Positions 1-9,842 of a DNA stretch of 64,000 nt are shown one piece after another. The position numbers and the translations under genes were made by a program. Within the stretch, counting starts at the first letter, position 1, and every line of letters begins with the position of its first letter. This stretch comes from Halosimplex salinum (lineage in GTDB: Archaea; Halobacteriota; Halobacteria; Halobacteriales; Haloarculaceae), in NCBI RefSeq assembly GCF_003730195.1, contig NZ_QWGG01000015.1:1-64000 (forward strand). Reading direction: 5' to 3'. The notes under the pieces were generated by a model. The model made no database searches and was not told the DNA's origin. It saw only the letters and a list, made by a program, of their open reading frames with translations.

Positions 1-1
1 G

Positions 2-1652
2 CTGGCGACGTGGCGCCAGCAGGGACGGAATCCCTACGCGGAACTCAAGCGCGTCGTCGAAAACAACGAGATGGTCTCACAGACTCACGCTGTGCCTGCC
101 GTCGAATCCTCGGGGTAAACACATACCCTTTGCCGAAGCGACCGACGCACTTCCAAGTATCTCCCAAACTGCGATTCGTGCTGACGGTAACGAAGACTCC
201 GACTCGGAGGAGGAGGAGGGCGAGGACTCAACACTCACCGACCCTGACCGGGAGGTTGGGGAAGACCCACCCGAAGGACGTATTGCGGATATTATTGGGG
301 CTTGTCTCCCCGAAATGCCCGACGAAGAACCGCCGGGTTGGGAGACAGTCGAAGGCCGGTTGAGAGAGATAATCTCGGGTAACGACTTCGAGAGTTCGCC
401 CATCCGTGCGTTCTCCGTACCCGCCTCGATGATTGCTGGTGAAGACTGGCGGTTCGTCCCCGCCGATGAAGAAGAAGCCCTCGGGAACATCGAAGCCGGA
501 GGAACGCAGTTCCAAGAATACGCGAATGGTGAGGAACTATCGAAAAACGGTGTTCAGACGGGAGCAAACCCGATATTTAAACTCACCGAGGACACCCTGA
601 GAGACTACGACCTCGAAGACGAACTCGTGAAGGAATTGGTCAGCGGTGAGGACGTACACCGATGGCATACCGACGTTCCGGACTATCCGAAGCTCCTCTA
701 TATCGCAAACGACGACGAACTCGAAGATTACCCCGGAGCGAAAGAGTACCTGTTCGACAACAAAGACAGTCTCGAAGACCGCTACTGTGTCACCGATGAA
801 CACAGACGTTGGTTTGACTTAGCCCGGAACCGACCGGACACGTTCGGTAAGGAACTCATCTTTACGCCGGACGTTAGCTACTACAGCAACTTCTGGTACG
901 AACCGACCGGAGACGTGTACGGGTTGAACTCCATCTATGTGCTGTACATCATCGATGGGTTTGACCCCTACTACCAGCTTGGCGTCTTCAACAGCAACGT
1001 CGCGCAGTTCTTCATTCGGCGTATCGCTTCGAGCTACGGGAGCGACTACCTGAGGTATCAATGGGACTATACGAAGAAGGTTCCCCTACCCGACCCGTCT
1101 GACGTGCCCACCGAATTAGTCGAGAAGGTCAAAGATGCCGCCGAGGAACTTTCCGACCTCCGTGAGGACTACGTCGAAGCCAAACAACTTCGGGAGAACC
1201 CGGCGGAGCTACTGGACGAGTTCGAGACGAAGTCCCTGTCCTACGCCGGCTACATCGACCGGCTTGGCTTTCAGGACTTGGAGGGAGAACTACACCCAAG
1301 CCTCGATGCGGAGACTATCCGGTTCGGAGTGACCGGGGCAAGCATCGAGTTCAACGATGAACGAGCCGCTGAAATCGTGTACGAGCTGTTACAGGCTCTC
1401 GAAGTCACTACGGGCGACGAACTCCGAAGCCTCGAACTCCCCGCCCTCAAAGAAGACCTCGTGGCGGTGTACGAGCGTTACGAGGACGCACGCAACACCG
1501 TAGAGGAAGCTCCGGAGGAAGCGAAAGACCTCGAACGCGAGTACAACGAAGTCGTGTACGACCTCTACGATTTGGACGAGGACACGAAAGAACTCATCCG
1601 CGACCGCGTTGCCCGACCTGAAAATCCGCTCGAACCGCGAGAAATCGAGTAG
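2..1652 (+). pseudogene. Type IIG (Eco57I/TaqI-like) restriction-modification enzyme, 3' part, apparent frameshift
   Basis: This is the C-terminal part of a combined DNA methylase/endonuclease; the methylase core lies off the left edge. The tail looks like a TaqI-type target-recognition domain: PKLLYI, then YGLNSIYVLYI, then LGVFNSNVAQFFIRR and KKVPLPDP, the usual order of strand and helix motifs, followed by a helical, charged C-terminus (YVEAKQLRENP onward). Reading from base 2 gives plausible protein to a TAA at 116-118; the frame starting at base 3 is then plausible from about 117 to 1652. Dropping one G from the GGGG run at 112-115 joins them as VESSGKHIPF, so I infer a +1 frameshift or a sequencing error. 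From base 315 alone the open frame is 445 residues. Codon use is less GC-rich than in genes right of 4140, in keeping with transfer on an element. Confidence 0.72.
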
Positions 1653-1655
1653 TTC

Positions 1656-2192
1656 CTACCTGTTCGGCAGTTCCCGCTTCCCGTCTCTCACGCACGGCCA
1701 GCAGGGGAAGCCGTCGGATAACCCCGCACAGTCACACTCGTCGTGTTCTGCCGCATCGAGGGGTTTGGACTCCCCGCCGACTCCCTCGGTCGTTGCCCCA
1801 CCGTCTGCCCGGAGCTTGTCCGACAACGTCGATGCGTTCGACCGCTCGGGATTCCCGCTCGGCGTCGGACAATTCACCGACGCTTCGAGGACGACCGGGC
1901 CGCCGACCGTAGCGAGAGCGACTTTGTGCTTACAGTCGTACTCCTCGTTGTACTTGTCCGCCGGACACTCACACTCCGCCGGAACGAGGACGCCGTCGCG
2001 GTCTTCGACGCCGACAAGATACGAGTGGTCGGCCTTCTCGAAGCCGTAGGATGCGTTGGTGACGCGAACCAGATGCGGGGCTTCGACCGCGAACTCCCAC
2101 GACTCCCACGAGACGCGCTTCGACGTTTTCGCGCCGAAGTTCAGGTATTCAACAGCGTTGCGCTTATCTTCCGCAGGGGCATTAGTGTTCAT
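1656..2192 (-). CDS. SWIM zinc-finger domain protein
   Basis: A 178-residue protein with a SWIM-type zinc site, Cys74-x-Cys76 ... Cys87-x-His89 (within ECECPADK and YDCKHKVAL). SWIM fingers bind DNA or protein partners; the exact role here is unknown. The N-terminal 70 residues form the strand-rich region that usually precedes SWIM in haloarchaeal proteins (SWEFAVEAPHLVRVTN). The C-terminus has a second Cys cluster (CDCAGL, CWPC) that may hold another metal. I chose the start giving MNTNAPAEDK; a longer frame reaches 2255 but its extra residues look unlike the family. It converges with the restriction gene, three bases apart, so it may be its accessory or only co-cargo of the element. Confidence 0.8.
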   Translation of the reverse strand: MNTNAPAEDKRNAVEYLNFGAKTSKRVSWESWEFAVEAPHLVRVTNASYGFEKADHSYLVGVEDRDGVLVPAECECPADKYNEEYDCKHKVALATVGGPVVLEASVNCPTPSGNPERSNASTLSDKLRADGGATTEGVGGESKPLDAAEHDECDCAGLSDGFPCWPCVRDGKRELPNR

Positions 2193-2305
2193 TGCTTCGG
2201 TTGGCCCGAAGCGCGGTCGGTGTTCCAGCACCGGCCATTTCTGCGACGGCGACACCGCGCTTCGTACTCAGTAGTCTATCGGGCAGTCTATTAAAGGTTC
2301 CCAAA

Positions 2306-2320: not shown

Positions 2321-2362
2321 AGGCATAGGAACTACTAACCCCTCGCACGCAGGAGACACTAT

Positions 2363-2572
2363 ATGGTCTTTCGCCGCGCCCTGATGACGAAACGAGAACG
2401 CGAACTCATCGAGGGAGACGACGACGCCGACGACCTCCGGTATCAGGCAGTCTCCCGAGTTCGTCGGAAGATAGAGGACGAACTAACGACCGACGCGGAG
2501 ATACTACGGGAACACCACCCGGAACTCTACGCCGAACTACAGGACGCCGTCTGTTCCGACGACTCCAAATAG
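2363..2572 (+). CDS. Small conserved haloarchaeal protein, unknown function
   Basis: A 69-residue, highly charged, mostly helical protein (MTKRERELIEGDDDADDLRYQ region, then RRKIEDELTTDAEILREHHP). An AGGAG at 2351-2355 sits seven bases before ATG 2363, which supports this start; a second ATG at 2384 would give a protein beginning MTKRERELI and is the alternative. I do not recognise a domain. It lies between two motif-rich non-coding stretches inside the integrated element, so a role in element control is possible but unproven. Confidence 0.65.
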   Translation: MVFRRALMTKRERELIEGDDDADDLRYQAVSRVRRKIEDELTTDAEILREHHPELYAELQDAVCSDDSK

Positions 2573-3193
2573 TTCGACAATCGACGTACCTACTGCGGTT
2601 TCTCGAAGTTGTCTCTCCTACTGTGTCTCCTCTATGCCACCTACATAGGAGACATACTGTAGGGGAACTACTGAGTGTTCTACTGAGGTAGTGTATCGGT
2701 TTACTACAACCCCTCGATGCGTTAGAACACAGTAGTTAGACCGGAAGTGGTGAGACACCTACTGTATATACATAGTAGGAGGCCCCCTGTTCCCACCGGC
2801 AGACGGCCACCCCGCCGAACCCGACCAGCGACACCCCACCCGTTTCCCACCAGACGCCACAGCAAGCTCGCTACGGGATTCTTTTTTCGACCGAAGGGGA
2901 ATCATCATCTCGGAGAAAAGACTGGCGGAGAAAGCGCGAGAGAAGCCGCACGAATAATCAGCGTAAGATTGGCACAACCACCACAAAATAAACGACAGTT
3001 GTCGAAACAAACACCCCGGTTAGAACATTCATCCGAGTTCCGTGCGTGAGTGTTAGTAAGTCGCTCCGAGAATTTTCCCGTCTGAGGTCAGGAATACAGG
3101 TTGCCGAACCCGCCGATTTCGAGGGTTTCAGAATCCCGGAAAACGGGGCGTATGGGGACTACTCGCCGGCAAAGAAAACCGCTGGACGGCAGT
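2573..3193. repeat. 620-base non-coding stretch with a CTACTG motif cluster
   Basis: No convincing gene is seen here. Between 2590 and 2779 the hexamer CTACTG occurs at 2590, 2618, 2668, 2680 and 2759 and inverted (CAGTAG) at 2730; TACTACAAC is at 2702-2710. At 2758-2779 the arms CCTACT and AGTAGG flank a TATA-like GTATATAC core. Such spacing suggests iterons or repeated operator sites. From about 2800 to 3190 I see only weak open frames with poor codon use, plus an A-rich patch at 2980-3010. Confidence 0.5.
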
Positions 3194-3364: not shown

Positions 3365-3641
3365 CCATTTGACCTTCTCCCGTAGCCGGTCTTACGTGTA
3401 GCGGTTAGCCCCGATTCACGGCGTTGGTTCCAGACCCCTCGATGCGGTGGGCCGCTCAAGACGACCACCGGAATCACGCATCCTTAGGCAAGAGTCGGGA
3501 TTCGCTCATTAGTCCGAAGTACACTTATAAATAAACGCAGAGTACGAACGGGAAAGTGAGGGACGTGGGAGGGATTCGAGACGGAAGCCGTGTAGCGTTT
3601 TCCGGTGATACTGGCGCGACACGCCGGGGAGTACCCGTTAA

Positions 3642-3736
3642 CTATTTAAAACTGTGTGTAGTGTTTTCTGACATAGAGAGTCAGAAGTGGGCGAAAGCCG
3701 GCAAAGGTAGCCTCTTTCCGCCGCTGAAAGCGGCGG
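3642..3736 (+). promoter_or_regulatory. TATA element followed by three hairpins, abutting the truncated tRNA
   Basis: A TATA-like CTATTTAAA at 3642-3650 would start transcription near 3672. What follows is highly foldable: TTCTGAC/GTCAGAA stem at 3666-3686, a GGC-GAAA-GCC tetraloop hairpin near 3689-3698, and a perfect 8-bp stem CCGCCGCT-GAA-AGCGGCGG at 3718-3736 that ends exactly where tRNA homology starts. Another TATA-like element is at 3525-3533. It may be the terminus of the element or a small structured RNA. The 3365-3641 stretch holds no gene I can support. Confidence 0.4.
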
Positions 3737-3792
3737 GGTAAAGCGCGTCCTTGGTAAGGACGAGAGCCCGGGTTCAAATCCCGGCCTAGGCT
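3737..3792 (+). pseudogene. 5'-truncated tRNA-Thr (GGT anticodon), integration scar
   Basis: Anticodon arm CGTCC-TTGGTAA-GGACG gives anticodon GGT (Thr). It is followed by the T arm CCGGG-TTCAAAT-CCCGG and the 3' acceptor strand CCTAGGC with discriminator T. The matching 5' acceptor GCCTAGG and a normal D arm are absent; the hairpin 3718-3736 takes their place. A 3' tRNA fragment next to mobile cargo is the classic product of tyrosine-recombinase integration, with the intact tRNA expected at the other end, left of this window. Confidence 0.85.
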
Positions 3793-3831
3793 CTTCTCGC
3801 GAACTCACGTCGCGAAGTTCCATCTTCGCGA
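3769..3831 (+). repeat. 63-bp att-like direct repeat, copy 1
   Basis: This copy runs from the T arm of the truncated tRNA-Thr through its 3' flank. It matches 4076-4138 with two mismatches; 3788-3831 and 4095-4138 are identical over 44 bp. The flank forms a hairpin, CGCGAAG-TTCCAT-CTTCGCG, enclosed in this copy by CTCACG/CGTGAG arms (3811 region to 3842). Confidence 0.85.
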
Positions 3832-3934
3832 CTCTCGTGAGCGTGAGTGCCGATACCGGGATTTGAACCCTGGAAGTCGCAGACCCGGAACGGCCGAGCG
3901 AGAGCGAGGCCGCACGCCCGGAACGTCTTCCTCC

Positions 3935-3956
3935 GGTTCAAATCCCGGCCTAGGCT
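3935..3956 (+). repeat. tRNA-Thr 3'-end remnant, middle copy (22 bp)
   Basis: These 22 bases are identical to 3771-3792 (T arm to discriminator of tRNA-Thr), then the flank diverges. Minus-strand T-arm-like remnants lie nearby at about 3855-3873 and 4018-4036. No intact tRNA can be drawn here. Confidence 0.75.
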
Positions 3957-4075
3957 TCTTGCGGCACGCTTCTGCGAGGCGTTTCATCGCCGAGCGACGC
4001 CTGTGCCGCGAAGCCGTTCCCGGGATTCGAACACGCGAGTCCCAGCGCGAACGAAGTGAGCGACCGTCTCGCAGT

Positions 4076-4138
4076 CGGGTTCAAACCCCGGCCGAGGCTC
4101 TTCTCGCGAACTCACGTCGCGAAGTTCCATCTTCGCGA
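4076..4138 (+). repeat. 63-bp att-like direct repeat, copy 2
   Basis: Second copy of the tRNA-Thr T-arm/flank repeat, 307 bases after the first, with two substitutions in the T arm (AAAT to AAAC, CCTAGG to CCGAGG). It marks the right border of the integration scar; ordinary core genes begin at once (4144). No gene is supported between 3793 and 4143. Confidence 0.85.
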
Positions 4139-4143
4139 TCACA

Positions 4144-4530
4144 TTACGCGAAATCGGTCCGACAGGCCACCGACCAGCCACACGTTGAATCGTCGACCAG
4201 TCGGTCGTAGAAGCGGCGCAGTCCCTCGGAGTCGGTCTCGGGGAGGACGTGCAACTGGACGGCGCGGTTCCGGACGGTCACGCGGAACACGTCGCCCGTC
4301 TCGTCGTCGCGGACGAGGTACAGCAGCATCGGGAGCTCCATGAAGTCGCCCGAGCGGTAGGGGCCGGAGTCGAGGACGGACGCGACGAGCGTTTCGAGGT
4401 CGTCGTTCGGGCGGTCGTCGTCGGGGGTCAACTCGAACACCGTCTCGCCCTCGTACTCGACGCCGCCGCTCCGCGGATAGTTCCGTTCGGGCCGGCCGGG
4501 GATGGCGAACGTGGGGTCACGCGCCGTCAT
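4144..4530 (-). CDS. Conserved haloarchaeal hypothetical protein
   Basis: A 128-residue acidic soluble protein. It begins MTARDPTFAIPGRPERNYPR and has a central alpha/beta stretch (GDFMELPMLLYLVRDDETGDVFRVTV) and a C-terminal segment RRFYDRLV...CGWSV. I do not recognise a family; the alternating strand pattern suggests a small single-domain fold. It is the first core gene right of the tRNA-Thr scar and its stop is six bases from the last att-like copy, so the scar sits just beyond its 3' end. Codon use matches core genes. Confidence 0.7.
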   Translation of the reverse strand: MTARDPTFAIPGRPERNYPRSGGVEYEGETVFELTPDDDRPNDDLETLVASVLDSGPYRSGDFMELPMLLYLVRDDETGDVFRVTVRNRAVQLHVLPETDSEGLRRFYDRLVDDSTCGWSVACRTDFA

Positions 4531-6216: not shown

Positions 6217-6920
6217 CAGTTCTCGGCCTCCGCGGGCGTCTCGGTCGATTCCGCTTCCGCCTCCGCATCGCGTCCGGCGGTGTCATCGCCGACGTCGACG
6301 ACGACGTCCGCGTCGGGCGCGACGAGGTTCTCGCGGACGTACGCGAGGAAGGTGTTGCGGGTGCTCCCGTCGGTCTCGCCGATGGCGACGCGGCGGGTGT
6401 TCACGCCGTCGATGAGCGTGGCGACGAACGCCGCGGTGTCCCGGGGGTCGACGTCCGAGCGGACGACCCCCTCGTCGATCCCGTCGGCGACGATCTCCCG
6501 GACTCTGTCGCGGACGAACGCGTCCACTCGCTCCAGTTGGTCCCGATACGCCTCCACGTACGGGGCCTGGGCCTTGATCTCCAGATAGGCCGTCTGGAAC
6601 TCTTCCGCGCCCTCGACGTCGGACTGACAGAGCACCTCGTCGACGAACGTGACCAGTCGGTCGACGGCGTGGTCGCCCTCTGTCTCCGCGAACTTCTCGG
6701 TGAAGGAGTCGTAGAGGTGGTCGAGGAAGGCGAGCAAGAGGTCCTCTTTCGTGTCGTAGTGGTAGTGCAGCGACGCCTTGCTCTTGTCCGATTCGTCCGC
6801 GATGTCCTGCATCGTCAGATCCGCGTACCCGTGTCGACAGAGCGCGCGGTAGGTGGCCTCCATGATGGCCTCCGGCGTGTCCGAGCCGGCCCCCGCGGCG
6901 CTCTCCGTCTCTCCACTCAT
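6216..6920 (-). CDS. TetR/AcrR-family transcriptional regulator of the adjacent MATE exporter
   Basis: A 234-residue regulator. Residues about 15-65 carry the TetR helix-turn-helix (LTMQDIADESDKSKASLHYH, then YDTKEDLLLAFLDHLY). The rest is the helical ligand-binding domain, ending in a long acidic tail (DVVVDVGDDTAGRDAEAE). It precedes the MATE gene in one operon. Two near-palindromes directly before its start (6929-6948, 6961-6980) point to autorepression relieved by a substrate of the exporter; the inducer cannot be read from sequence. Confidence 0.93.
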   Translation of the reverse strand: MSGETESAAGAGSDTPEAIMEATYRALCRHGYADLTMQDIADESDKSKASLHYHYDTKEDLLLAFLDHLYDSFTEKFAETEGDHAVDRLVTFVDEVLCQSDVEGAEEFQTAYLEIKAQAPYVEAYRDQLERVDAFVRDRVREIVADGIDEGVVRSDVDPRDTAAFVATLIDGVNTRRVAIGETDGSTRNTFLAYVRENLVAPDADVVVDVGDDTAGRDAEAEAESTETPAEAEN

Positions 6921-6928
6921 TACCGGAG

Positions 6929-6948
6929 TTAACTGACTGGTCAGTCAA
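6929..6948. promoter_or_regulatory. TetR operator, proximal
   Basis: A 20-bp near-palindrome whose core CTGAC-TG-GTCAG is perfect (6933-6944) lies 9 bases before the tetR ATG. It shares its half-site with 6961-6980. Confidence 0.65.
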
Positions 6949-6960
6949 AACAGTTTCGAA

Positions 6961-6980
6961 CTGACTGACCGGTTAGTCAG
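6961..6980. promoter_or_regulatory. TetR operator, distal
   Basis: CTGACTGACCGGTTAGTCAG is a 20-bp palindrome with one mismatched pair. Its centre is 32 bp from that of the proximal site, about three helical turns, so two dimers could bind the same face. Confidence 0.7.
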
Positions 6981-7093
6981 AGCGTGACACGGTCGGGGCA
7001 TCGGACGCGAGCGCGCAAGCCCTCTCTCGACGGTCGGGAATCGGCTGCACGGTTCAAATGCGTCGAGCGCGTCGATCAGAACGGGAGCGACTC

Positions 7094-7402
7094 ATGACCC
7101 ACCACCCGGACCACGAGGTCGAACTGTACAGAGACGAGGGGGCGTACGAGGTGTACGTCGACGTGCCCGGCTACGACCGCGGGGACTTCGACCTGCGCTG
7201 GCACGACGGGCGGCTCCGCGTCACCGCGGAGCAGCGCGACGCGGAGGGCGAGACGCGCGTCTACAACCGTCACGTCTCGGTGCCGCGCCGGATCGAGGCC
7301 GACGAGATATCGGCGACCTACAGCGACGGCGTGTTGCACGTGCGACTCCCCATCTCCGCTGACGAATCACGGCCCGGCACGCGCATCGAGGTCAGCGAGT
7401 AG
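7094..7402 (+). CDS. hsp20: Hsp20/alpha-crystallin small heat-shock protein
   Basis: A 102-residue protein almost entirely made of an alpha-crystallin domain: EAYEVYVDVPGYDRGDFDL-like start (residues about 12-31), WHDGRLRVTAEQ and the C-terminal strand pair YSDGVLHVRLPI. The last residues GTRIEV supply an I-x-V-type anchoring motif. Small Hsps hold unfolding proteins in soluble oligomers in the cytoplasm. Start ATG 7094 is preferred because GGGAG lies eight bases before it; an upstream ATG at 7058 would add an Arg-rich, unlikely leader. Confidence 0.88.
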   Translation: MTHHPDHEVELYRDEGAYEVYVDVPGYDRGDFDLRWHDGRLRVTAEQRDAEGETRVYNRHVSVPRRIEADEISATYSDGVLHVRLPISADESRPGTRIEVSE

Positions 7403-7441
7403 ACGACGGCCGCGGCCGACCGGAACTCGGGACGGTCCCGG

Positions 7442-8404
7442 TCACACCCAGTCGAGGTCGGGGTCGATCCGGTCGGGCGGCGTCTCGCCGTCGAGCGCGG
7501 CCCGGACGTTGACCGCGACCGTCTCGACGAGGTCGGCGCGGGCCTCTTCGGAGTACCAGGCGGCGTGGGGCGTCAGGGTCGCGTCGTCGCGGTCGAACAG
7601 CGGCGAGTCCTCCGGGGGCTCCCGGGCGAACACGTCGAGTCCAGCGCCCGCGACCGCCCCCGCTTCGAGTGCGTCGGCCAGCGCGGCCTCGTCCACGACG
7701 CCGCCGCGACCAGTGTTGACGACGACGGCGCGGTCGGGCAGTCGTTCGAACGCGTCCCCGTCGACCATGTGCCGGGTCTCCTCGGTCAGCGGCGCGTTGA
7801 TCGACAGCAGGTCGGTCCGACCCAGCAGTTCCTCGTACTCGACCGCCTCGACGCCGTCCTCTGCCATCTCCTCGGCGTCGACGTAGGGGTCGTAGGCCAC
7901 GTACGCCAGGTCGAACCCGCTCGTCTGCTCGCGGACGCGGCGCGCGATCGGACCGTAGGAGAGAAACCCCATCGTGAGGCCGGAGAGACGGTGCGTCTCC
8001 CCGCCGACGCGCCAGTCCCACCCGCCGGCCTTCACGTCGGTGTCGTAGAGCCCCAGTTTCCGCAGGCAGGCCAGCAGCAGCGACACGGTGTGGGTGGCCA
8101 CCTCGTCGGTGCAGTACTCGGGGACGTTCGTGACGGCGACGCCGCGTTCGGCCGCGGCGCCCACGTCGACTCTGTCGATGCCGACGCCGGCGCGCGCGAC
8201 GATTTCGAGGTCGGGACAGGCCGCCAGCACGTCGGCGGTGACCGGCGTGGACACGTCGACGACCAGCCCCGCCGCACCGCTCGCGGCTTCGCGCACCGCT
8301 CGCTCGGTGTCCGTCTCGGCGACGGTGACGGTCACGTCCGCACCGAGCCTGTCGGCCAGTGCCTCGGCGTCGATCATCGGATCGTCGCTCACGACAACGT
8401 CCAT
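7442..8404 (-). CDS. D-2-hydroxyacid dehydrogenase, C-terminal-binding-protein (CtBP) type
   Basis: A 320-residue NAD-linked dehydrogenase of the phosphoglycerate-dehydrogenase superfamily. The substrate-domain loop VARAGVGIDRVDV, the catalytic Arg segment NTGRGGVVDEAAL, the Glu segment DVFAREPPEDSPLF and the His segment TPHAAWYSEEA are all present; the HAAWYSE form is characteristic of CtBP-like members. The nucleotide-binding loop reads GFLSYGPIAR, with Ser where the first Gly of GxGxxG is normal. The natural substrate cannot be inferred. It converges with hsp20 and is divergent from the AGE epimerase gene. Confidence 0.88.
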   Translation of the reverse strand: MDVVVSDDPMIDAEALADRLGADVTVTVAETDTERAVREAASGAAGLVVDVSTPVTADVLAACPDLEIVARAGVGIDRVDVGAAAERGVAVTNVPEYCTDEVATHTVSLLLACLRKLGLYDTDVKAGGWDWRVGGETHRLSGLTMGFLSYGPIARRVREQTSGFDLAYVAYDPYVDAEEMAEDGVEAVEYEELLGRTDLLSINAPLTEETRHMVDGDAFERLPDRAVVVNTGRGGVVDEAALADALEAGAVAGAGLDVFAREPPEDSPLFDRDDATLTPHAAWYSEEARADLVETVAVNVRAALDGETPPDRIDPDLDWV

Positions 8405-8567
8405 GGGGGGTCTCGGGACCGGTCGGGGATAAATGCGAACGCCGGTTCTCACCCGACGGGCAGCCGGCCGATTGCACCGGCGTCGTCGCCGCCAGCGGTT
8501 GACTGTGGCAAACAGCGGCCGTAGCGACTCACGAGCGTTGAAGTACCGGCCGGGTGAACGCCGAGTC

Positions 8568-9842
8568 ATGACACGCGACGCCGACTCGCTCGCCGAGGAG
8601 TACCTGCCGCGACTGAAGGAGAACCTGCGCGAGACGGTGATCGACTTCTGGTACCCCCGTGCCATCGACAGCGACCACGGCGGCTTCATCACCAGCTACG
8701 ACGCCGACGGCGAGTTCGCGGGCAACGACCGCAAGATGATCGTCACGCAGGCGCGGATGGTGTGGTTCTCCGCCCGGCTGTACCGCGCCGGCTACGGCGA
8801 CGAACTGCTCGACGCCGCCGAGCGCGGCTTCGACTTCCTCACCGAGGAGATGCGCGACCACGAGCACGGCGGCTACTACTGGGAGGTCGAGCGCGACGGC
8901 ACCGTGACGAAGCCGAACAAGCACATGTACGGCCAGTCGTTCGTCCTCTACGGGCTCTCGGAGTACTACCGCGCCAGCGACGACGAGGCCGCCCGCGAGG
9001 CCGCCGTCGACCTCTTCGAACTGTTCGAGGCGGAAGCGTACGACGACGAGAACGGGGGGTACGTCGAGTACTTCGAACCGGACTGGACGCCCATCACCGA
9101 CGGCGGCACCTACCTCGACAACATCGAGCCCGACTGGTCGCCCAAAGAGGAGGTCGACGCCGAACTCGACCCGACGACGAAGCTGATGAACACCCACCTC
9201 CACCTGATGGAGGCGTTCACTACCTTCTACGAGGCCACCGGGCACGACCTGGGCGGCAAGCGGCTCTCCGAGCTTCTCACGATCAACACCAACACCGTCG
9301 TCCGAAAGGGGCTGGGCGCCTGTACCGACAAGTACGCCCCAGACTGGCGACCCCTGCTCGACGACGAGGCGTACCGCATCGTCTCCTACGGCCACGACGT
9401 GGAGAACGTCTGGCTGACGATGGACGCGGCCGACGCGCTGGACTCCTCGCTCAACTACTACCGCGACCTCTACGAGACGCTGTGGGACTACTCGCTCGAA
9501 TACGGCTACGACGACGAGCACGGCGGGTTCTACTTCTACGGCCCGTTCGAGGAACCCGCCTCGAGTCGCATCAAGGCGTGGTGGGTGCAGGCCGAGGCGC
9601 TGACGAGCGCGCTCCGCATGTACGAACTCACCGACGACGACGAGTACGCCGACGTGTTCGCCGAGACCTACGAGTTTATCGACGAGTACCACGTCGACAG
9701 GGAGGTCGGCGAGTGGCACTCCGGGGTCACCGAGGATCTGGAACCCGTCGGCCGCAAGGGCGCGATGTACAAGGGCGCCTACCACAACGGCCGCGCCCTG
9801 CTGGAGTGTATCGAGGCGCTGGAGCGACTGCGGGACGCCTGA
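8568..9842 (+). CDS. AGE-family (N-acylglucosamine 2-epimerase / cellobiose epimerase-like) sugar epimerase
   Basis: A 424-residue protein with the (alpha/alpha)6-barrel signature of the AGE family: repeated GGY/GGF hairpins (SDHGGFITSY, HEHGGYYWEV, DENGGYVEYF, DEHGGFYFYG), KMIVTQARMVWFSA early, HMYGQSFVLYGLSEYY, and KAWWVQAEAL with GAYHNGRALLE near the end. These hold the sugar-binding aromatic residues and conserved His. Members epimerise or isomerise the reducing-end sugar; which sugar is not decidable. I start at ATG 8568 (MTRDADSLAEEYLPRL); the frame extends upstream but with Arg-rich, non-family sequence. Confidence 0.88.
   Translation: MTRDADSLAEEYLPRLKENLRETVIDFWYPRAIDSDHGGFITSYDADGEFAGNDRKMIVTQARMVWFSARLYRAGYGDELLDAAERGFDFLTEEMRDHEHGGYYWEVERDGTVTKPNKHMYGQSFVLYGLSEYYRASDDEAAREAAVDLFELFEAEAYDDENGGYVEYFEPDWTPITDGGTYLDNIEPDWSPKEEVDAELDPTTKLMNTHLHLMEAFTTFYEATGHDLGGKRLSELLTINTNTVVRKGLGACTDKYAPDWRPLLDDEAYRIVSYGHDVENVWLTMDAADALDSSLNYYRDLYETLWDYSLEYGYDDEHGGFYFYGPFEEPASSRIKAWWVQAEALTSALRMYELTDDDEYADVFAETYEFIDEYHVDREVGEWHSGVTEDLEPVGRKGAMYKGAYHNGRALLECIEALERLRDA

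Follow-up and report, generated by a model that had tools for sequence, protein, structure and literature searches.

A tRNA-Thr fragment bounding a small restriction-modification-bearing integrative element in Halosimplex salinum, and hairpin cassettes behind haloarchaeal tRNA genes

Organization of the locus

The window analysed here is a 64,000-nt stretch of Halosimplex salinum DNA at the start of contig NZ_QWGG01000015.1, which is referred to as C6 of the genome under study (G000); C22 denotes another contig of the same genome. The window opens with the right end of an IS (1..126), whose terminal inverted repeat, GTATGTGTTTA[C/G]CCC, matches a 127-nt end on C22. This end is followed by the 8-bp target duplication of the IS, CCTTTGCC (127..134, +), and the same 8 bp closes the half of a gene on C22. 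That gene encodes an Eco57I-type (type IIG) restriction-modification (RM) protein, the C-terminal part of which lies at 127..1652 (+) and the N-terminal part at C22:128-2287(-). Further to the right are a gene for a 199-aa SWIM zinc-finger protein (1656..2255, -; Pfam SWIM, 1.1e-6) and a small ORF of the element to which the Pfam scan assigned no function (2362..2574, +). A fragment of tRNA-Thr is located at 3737..3792 (+), and beyond it are found two hairpin cassettes that end in shorter copies of the tRNA-Thr tail, and a 128-aa gene (4144..4530, -), which is the first chromosomal gene to the right of the site.

The halves of the RM gene form a single 1225-aa frame with one stop codon, at its end, when the IS and one copy of CCTTTGCC are omitted, which suggests that C22 and C6 meet, across the assembly gap, through one IS copy inside the RM gene. 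Additionally, DUF7114 lies on C22 and the 128-aa gene on C6, whereas both are at one locus in the congener G005, so that synteny also links the two contigs. The IS end of 126-127 nt is found again at the ends of contigs C13, C25, C2, C12 and C9. More broadly, this multi-copy IS, recognizable by the GTATGTGTTTA repeat and the 8-bp duplication, is present at many contig ends of G000, those of C6 and C22 included, which accounts for the assembly break at the start of the window and for much of the fragmentation of the assembly. The splitting of the locus by an IS at the contig break had not been foreseen by the first-pass annotation, which was made from the letters of the window.

A tRNA-Thr fragment and its intact partner

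In the whole-genome comparison, the segment 3737-3792 corresponds to positions 17-72 of an intact 72-nt tRNA-Thr(GGT) at G000:C22:5687-5758(-), with 56 of 56 bases identical (100%). The identity ends exactly at the 3' end of the tRNA on one side and within the D loop on the other; the fragment therefore lacks the 5' acceptor strand and the greater part of the D arm, in agreement with the first-pass annotation, which had described a partial tRNA-Thr(GGT) lacking precisely these parts. ARAGORN calls no tRNA at 3737-3792, and the Rfam tRNA model scores 33 bits there versus 75 for the best intact tRNA of the genome.

The same annotation had taken the fragment as the right end of a tyrosine-recombinase element with lower-GC DNA and an RM gene on its left, and had predicted an intact tRNA-Thr(GGT) with the same last 56 bases and a neighboring integrase gene. 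All of these are borne out. The GC content of the two parts of the element is 56.7% (on C22) and 56.6% (in the window), versus 68.2% in window positions 4200-64000, with a step at both sides, and the RM gene is the Eco57I-type gene described above. The matching tRNA is that on C22, and a gene for a 401-aa tyrosine integrase (Pfam Phage_integrase, PF00589, 5.6e-14) starts 178 bp past it.

A comparison with congeners, which had also been proposed, reveals the empty site. G005 carries, in this order, DUF7114, tRNA-Thr (72/72 identical), CTTCTCGCGAACTCAC, a gene-like stretch, the 128-aa gene and MATE. The 16 bases that directly follow the tRNA-Thr of G005, CTTCTCGCGAACTCAC, are identical to window positions 3793..3808 (+), which thus represent the chromosomal DNA that stood behind tRNA-Thr before integration. 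The genes of the left side (DUF7114, an enoyl-CoA hydratase-like gene and NadE) are in G005 the neighbors of those of the right side (the 128-aa gene and MATE). The 128-aa gene is conserved in the genus, with 78-80% identity in six congeners, and ordinary genes follow tRNA-Thr in the congener G003.

In light of the matching tRNA pair, the adjacent integrase gene and the empty site, it is very nearly certain that 3737-3792 is the attR of a small integrative element of approximately 9.2 kb, plus the inserted IS, which was inserted into the 3' end of tRNA-Thr(GGT) through site-specific recombination. The incoming element would have supplied its own copy of tRNA positions 17-72, so that after the crossover the tRNA-Thr beside the integrase gene (attL, on C22) would have been complete, and the displaced 3' end of the host gene would have come to lie at attR. 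The 401-aa integrase presumably performed the integration, and the element may still be able to excise.

Gene content and relatives of the element

The gene order of the element, which measures approximately 9.2 kb with the IS excluded, is tRNA-Thr/attL, the integrase gene (401 aa), genes for a 72-aa and a 257-aa protein, the type IIG RM gene (split by the IS), the gene for the SWIM protein, small ORFs and attR. The 72-aa protein, on C22, shows a weak zinc-finger match, and for the 257-aa protein neither a Pfam family nor a phage match is found. The N-terminal part of the RM protein matches Pfam Eco57I (1.9e-26) and the C-terminal part matches TaqI_C (7.9e-5, below the cut-off); PADLOC assigns the gene to type II/IIG. 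The Pfam matches among the ORFs of the element are confined to the integrase, RM and SWIM proteins, with no virion or packaging genes.

Among the 116 relatives searched, integrases with 72-73% identity are present in G090, G029 and G073, all at tRNA-Thr(GGT) with DUF7114 upstream. A second copy of exactly positions 17-72 of the tRNA is located at a distance of 13.3 kb in G090 and of 12.4 kb in G029; the stretches examined in G073 revealed no right end of the element. The sibling cargo includes a type IIG RM system in G090, a type I HsdR in G073, and relatives (approximately 34% identical) of the SWIM protein in G090 and G029; virion genes are absent among the proteins scanned. The sibling loci at tRNA-Thr (L139, L140 and L141) carry differing restriction systems (type IIG, type I) and a SWIM protein or a small winged-helix-like gene, and tRNA-Thr(GGT) looks like a defence hotspot.

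The integrase is also found in 49 phage records, 41 of them at 60-80% identity, with the HF1-group haloviruses in the lead. This halovirus type of integrase and att site lay beyond what the first-pass annotation had foreseen. The HF1-group integrases are 72% identical to that of the element, and a partial tRNA-Thr lies 183 bp ahead of the viral integrase gene with a conserved leader, a spacing nearly identical to the 178 bp of the element; the att sequences of the element and the viruses are 92% identical over 51 nt. The partial tRNA-Thr of these viruses has been identified as attP, and two proviruses of the group reside in tRNA-Thr (PMC7230728). Since HF1 and HF2 behave as lytic in culture (PMC7230728), the islets described here supply natural integration products for this type of integrase.

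The element thus shares with the HF1-group (Hafunaviridae) viruses the type of integrase, the attP module of partial tRNA-Thr(GGT), the leader and the target gene, but these viruses measure approximately 69-78 kb, with 74-78 kb for the closest known counterparts, and carry virion genes, whereas the element measures approximately 9.2 kb, has none that could be found, and bears cargo that is not closely related. Because it has no virion gene, and because its other proteins are distant from those of phages or absent in them, it is classified here among the tRNA islands, with an integration module of viral type, and its behaviour is that of a defence islet equipped with an RM system, not that of a provirus. 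An element of this kind, in which a viral integration module is combined with genes other than virion genes, is already known. It is not fundamentally different from the tRNA-targeted tyrosine-integrase islands (Islander, PMC4383910; reviewed in PMC8371274), with which it shares the ends formed by an intact tRNA and a 3' fragment, the integrase beside the intact tRNA and the foreign cargo. A truncated tRNA-Thr1 in Haloquadratum walsbyi (PMC3119063) is likewise a copy of approximately 57 nt in which the first 15 nt of tRNA-Thr are missing; however, that copy is imperfect and has no integrase nearby, whereas the copy described here is exact and is accompanied by one.

The shared integrase, att site and leader, in addition to the type IIG RM gene that adjoins attP in the HF1-group viruses, could also mean that the element is a decayed HF1-group provirus stripped of its virion genes instead of a separate kind of element. 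This origin is considered unlikely, as identity between the RM protein and its viral counterparts is only approximately 29%, no match in phages is found for the 257-aa or the SWIM protein, and siblings in another family combine the same integrase with other RM systems and, among the scanned proteins, no virion gene. That the fragment is a mere decayed duplicate of tRNA-Thr, with no element involved, is barely credible: although partial tRNA copies are plentiful in haloarchaea, and the cassettes described below alone leave copies of 14-24 nt behind many tRNAs, such a duplicate would be at odds with the exact, sharply bounded match of 56 bases, the integrase gene beside the corresponding intact tRNA-Thr, the empty site in G005 and the identical 56-nt pair in two other genomes (G090 and G029). 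The integrative element therefore stands as an HF1-type integration module on a small RM-bearing islet, with counterparts in several haloarchaeal families, exact attL/attR pairs and an empty site.

Hairpin cassettes with tRNA tails

Beyond attR, shorter copies of the tRNA-Thr tail begin at 3935 and 4077, which the first-pass annotation had not remarked upon. Both copies (3935-3956 and 4077-4099) are preceded by an inverted T-loop sequence and form the ends of two cassettes. Cassette 1 (3859..3956, +) has the structure GGATTTGAAC-N6-AGTCGCAG, a hairpin and CGTCT-N7-GTTCAAATCC, and has the 3'-terminal 22 nt of tRNA-Thr repeated at its end; cassette 2 (4023..4099, +) terminates in a slightly mutated tail. 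The covariance model R1, built from 34 cassette sequences, matches cassette 1 with 64.6 bits (E 1.9e-15) and cassette 2 with 42.3 bits (E 2.6e-9); cassette 1 is one of the 34 units and cassette 2 lies outside the R1 alignment. A tRNA-Thr trailer hairpin repeat follows cassette 2 (4100..4138, +) as a near-copy of 3793-3831, with 97% identity over 63 bp when the tail is included. TRF reports no tandem array in 3500-4300, and in 3600-4250 only the tRNA model of Rfam exceeds its cut-off (at 3720-3792), with no family corresponding to the cassettes.

Because the element lies between the cassettes and the intact tRNA-Thr, the cassettes at 3859-4099 were, judging from their position, probably part of the tRNA-Thr locus before the element entered, and its entry would have pushed them away from the intact gene.

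The arrangement recurs elsewhere in the genome. For 21 of the 44 tRNA genes of G000, the last 14-24 nt of the gene are copied within 420 bp downstream, and the copy ends exactly at the tRNA end; for the remaining tRNAs, the copy of the own tail is 11 nt or less. In the controls, the tail of another tRNA is found in 11 of 1890 cross comparisons, and none is found in 440 shuffles.

In a scan of the whole collection, the pattern GGATTTGAAC-N6-AGTCGCAG is encountered almost only in haloarchaea. A tRNA with the same orientation lies within 400 bp upstream of 68 of the 85 matches; in 59 of those 68 cases, at least 11 nt of the tail of that tRNA are copied. As the other letters of the left arm were fixed by the search pattern, only the free positions serve as evidence of covariation: two free N positions form pairs with bases of the right arm, in 68 and 70, respectively, of the 71 units, and three to four types of pair are used. 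In the alignment of 34 sequences, 63 double-changed cells are counted versus 25.5 +/- 4.0 in shuffles. The stems of the cassette body covary, and the body also contains internal loops and a T-T (U-U) mismatch that is conserved; its folding is stronger than that of shuffled sequences (z -7.3).

R1 finds matches in 112 of 116 genomes of a class sample, with 1-36 matches per matched genome and 27 in G000; the four genomes without a match are G118, G134, G143 and G158, and the highest count, 36, belongs to G137. Of the 197 genomes sampled across the phylum, 33 are matched, all of which are haloarchaea (the genome itself, the same family or the same order) apart from one marginal match (E 7e-4). 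For the best 30 class-wide loci, a tRNA is located within 300 bp upstream in 26 and a tail copy is present in 22; at least two of the remaining four have an intron-bearing or oppositely oriented tRNA. The strand of a cassette is nearly always that of its tRNA, and the T-loop variant in the antisense arm agrees in most cases with the T loop of the own tRNA. The antisense arm was also considered as a copy of the acceptor strand of its own tRNA, which was rejected, since in the pattern-selected sample only 2-3 bases agree beyond chance. An extra base in the T loop of the copied tail (GTTCACAATCC for GTTCAAATCC) recurs across unrelated species and tRNAs (L145, L150, L162, L192, L201 and others). 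Additionally, a comparison of L020 (G000:C21:144731) with L275 and L297 reveals further small palindromes inside the cassette, as if hairpins invade hairpins.

Insertion, RNA structure or scar

Congeners differ in whether a cassette stands behind an orthologous tRNA. At C22:104741, the DNA of G000 past the tail copy (TTCTCGGATCCGT) closely matches the DNA of G005 directly after the tRNA (TTCTCGGATTCGT). At C11:345529, two units are present in G000 and none in G002, and homology restarts right after the second unit. The orthologue of C11:602761 is filled in G002 and empty in G005, with a shared motif of approximately 21 nt that differs by one base. Behind a tRNA-Glu, at L322 (1502-1590), the body of the cassette is inverted, while the tail copy keeps the direction of the tRNA, which suggests flipping at the DNA level or insertion in either direction. 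The filled and empty alleles, together with this inverted body, favour a discrete DNA insertion or a precise loss between tail repeats.

With somewhat better than even confidence, the cassettes are interpreted as an undescribed family of non-coding hairpin cassettes of approximately 100-165 bp, whose insertion takes place exactly behind tRNA genes and results in a second copy of the 14-24-nt 3' tail of the tRNA that is entered; tail-cassette-tail arrays may arise in this way. Such cassettes would be present in nearly all haloarchaea and essentially nowhere else in the phylum sample. No plasmid match and no exact pattern match in IMG/VR are found for the cassette, and no description was found in the open-access PMC literature, so that novelty is not proven.

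An appreciable but smaller probability is assigned to the cassettes being a conserved structure of the pre-tRNA trailer that acts on tRNA maturation and not mobile DNA. A role as RNA is made conceivable by three features: the stems covary, the cassette shares the strand of its tRNA in nearly all cases, and the variant in the antisense arm for the most part corresponds to the T loop of the tRNA that it stands behind. The conserved T-T (U-U) mismatch, the internal loops and the strength of folding (z -7.3 versus shuffles) point in the same direction. However, a given tRNA may be followed by a cassette in one congener and by none in another, the junctions being clean in both states, approximately half of the tRNAs have no cassette, and the inverted body at L322, with the direction of its tail copy retained, is difficult to reconcile with a trailer structure.

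The cassettes at 3859-4099 were initially read as att scars of earlier integrative elements that have since been deleted, in that they end in an attR-like 3' tail and Haloquadratum offers documented cases in which elements flanked by tRNAs were lost via repeats (PMC3119063). This reading was dropped as quite improbable, given that many different tRNAs across the class are followed by one and the same body: a conserved covarying hairpin found in 112 of 116 genomes would not be shared by unrelated scars, and the copied tail is mostly 14-24 nt, not 56.

The preferred interpretation as inserting cassettes invites comparison with two known kinds of element. Like MITEs and other non-autonomous palindromic elements, the cassettes are short and non-coding, with internal inverted repeats (the inverted pair GGATTTGAAC/GTTCAAATCC), presence/absence polymorphism (empty sites) and a duplicated target; they differ in that the target is the 3' end of a tRNA and the duplicated stretch is the own tail of that tRNA. 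Casposons and other Cas1-type insertions occur next to tRNA genes and are accompanied by target duplication. Repeated insertion of this type at the leader end would yield tail-cassette-tail arrays that resemble the cassettes, whereas the cassettes are non-coding, carry neither casposase nor PolB, and show a duplication of 14-24 nt.

If the interpretation holds, the cassettes would be mobile cassettes of a new kind that target tRNA genes, structured RNAs linked to tRNAs, or both, and they are regarded here as more important than the neighboring element. Many of the partial tRNA copies in haloarchaeal genomes would be explained by a repeat found across the class in which the tail of the host tRNA is duplicated, and cassettes of this type are liable to be mistaken for att sites during the mapping of islands. 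They also point to a novel insertion enzyme or to a novel layer of tRNA 3'-end biology.

A further feature of the tRNA genes was noted in G005, in which two near-identical clusters of about a dozen tRNA genes each are located on C3, a small contig, at 6495-9296 and 116103-118906, approximately 110 kb apart; the arrangement looks like a tRNA-rich plasmid or virus, or like an assembly duplication.
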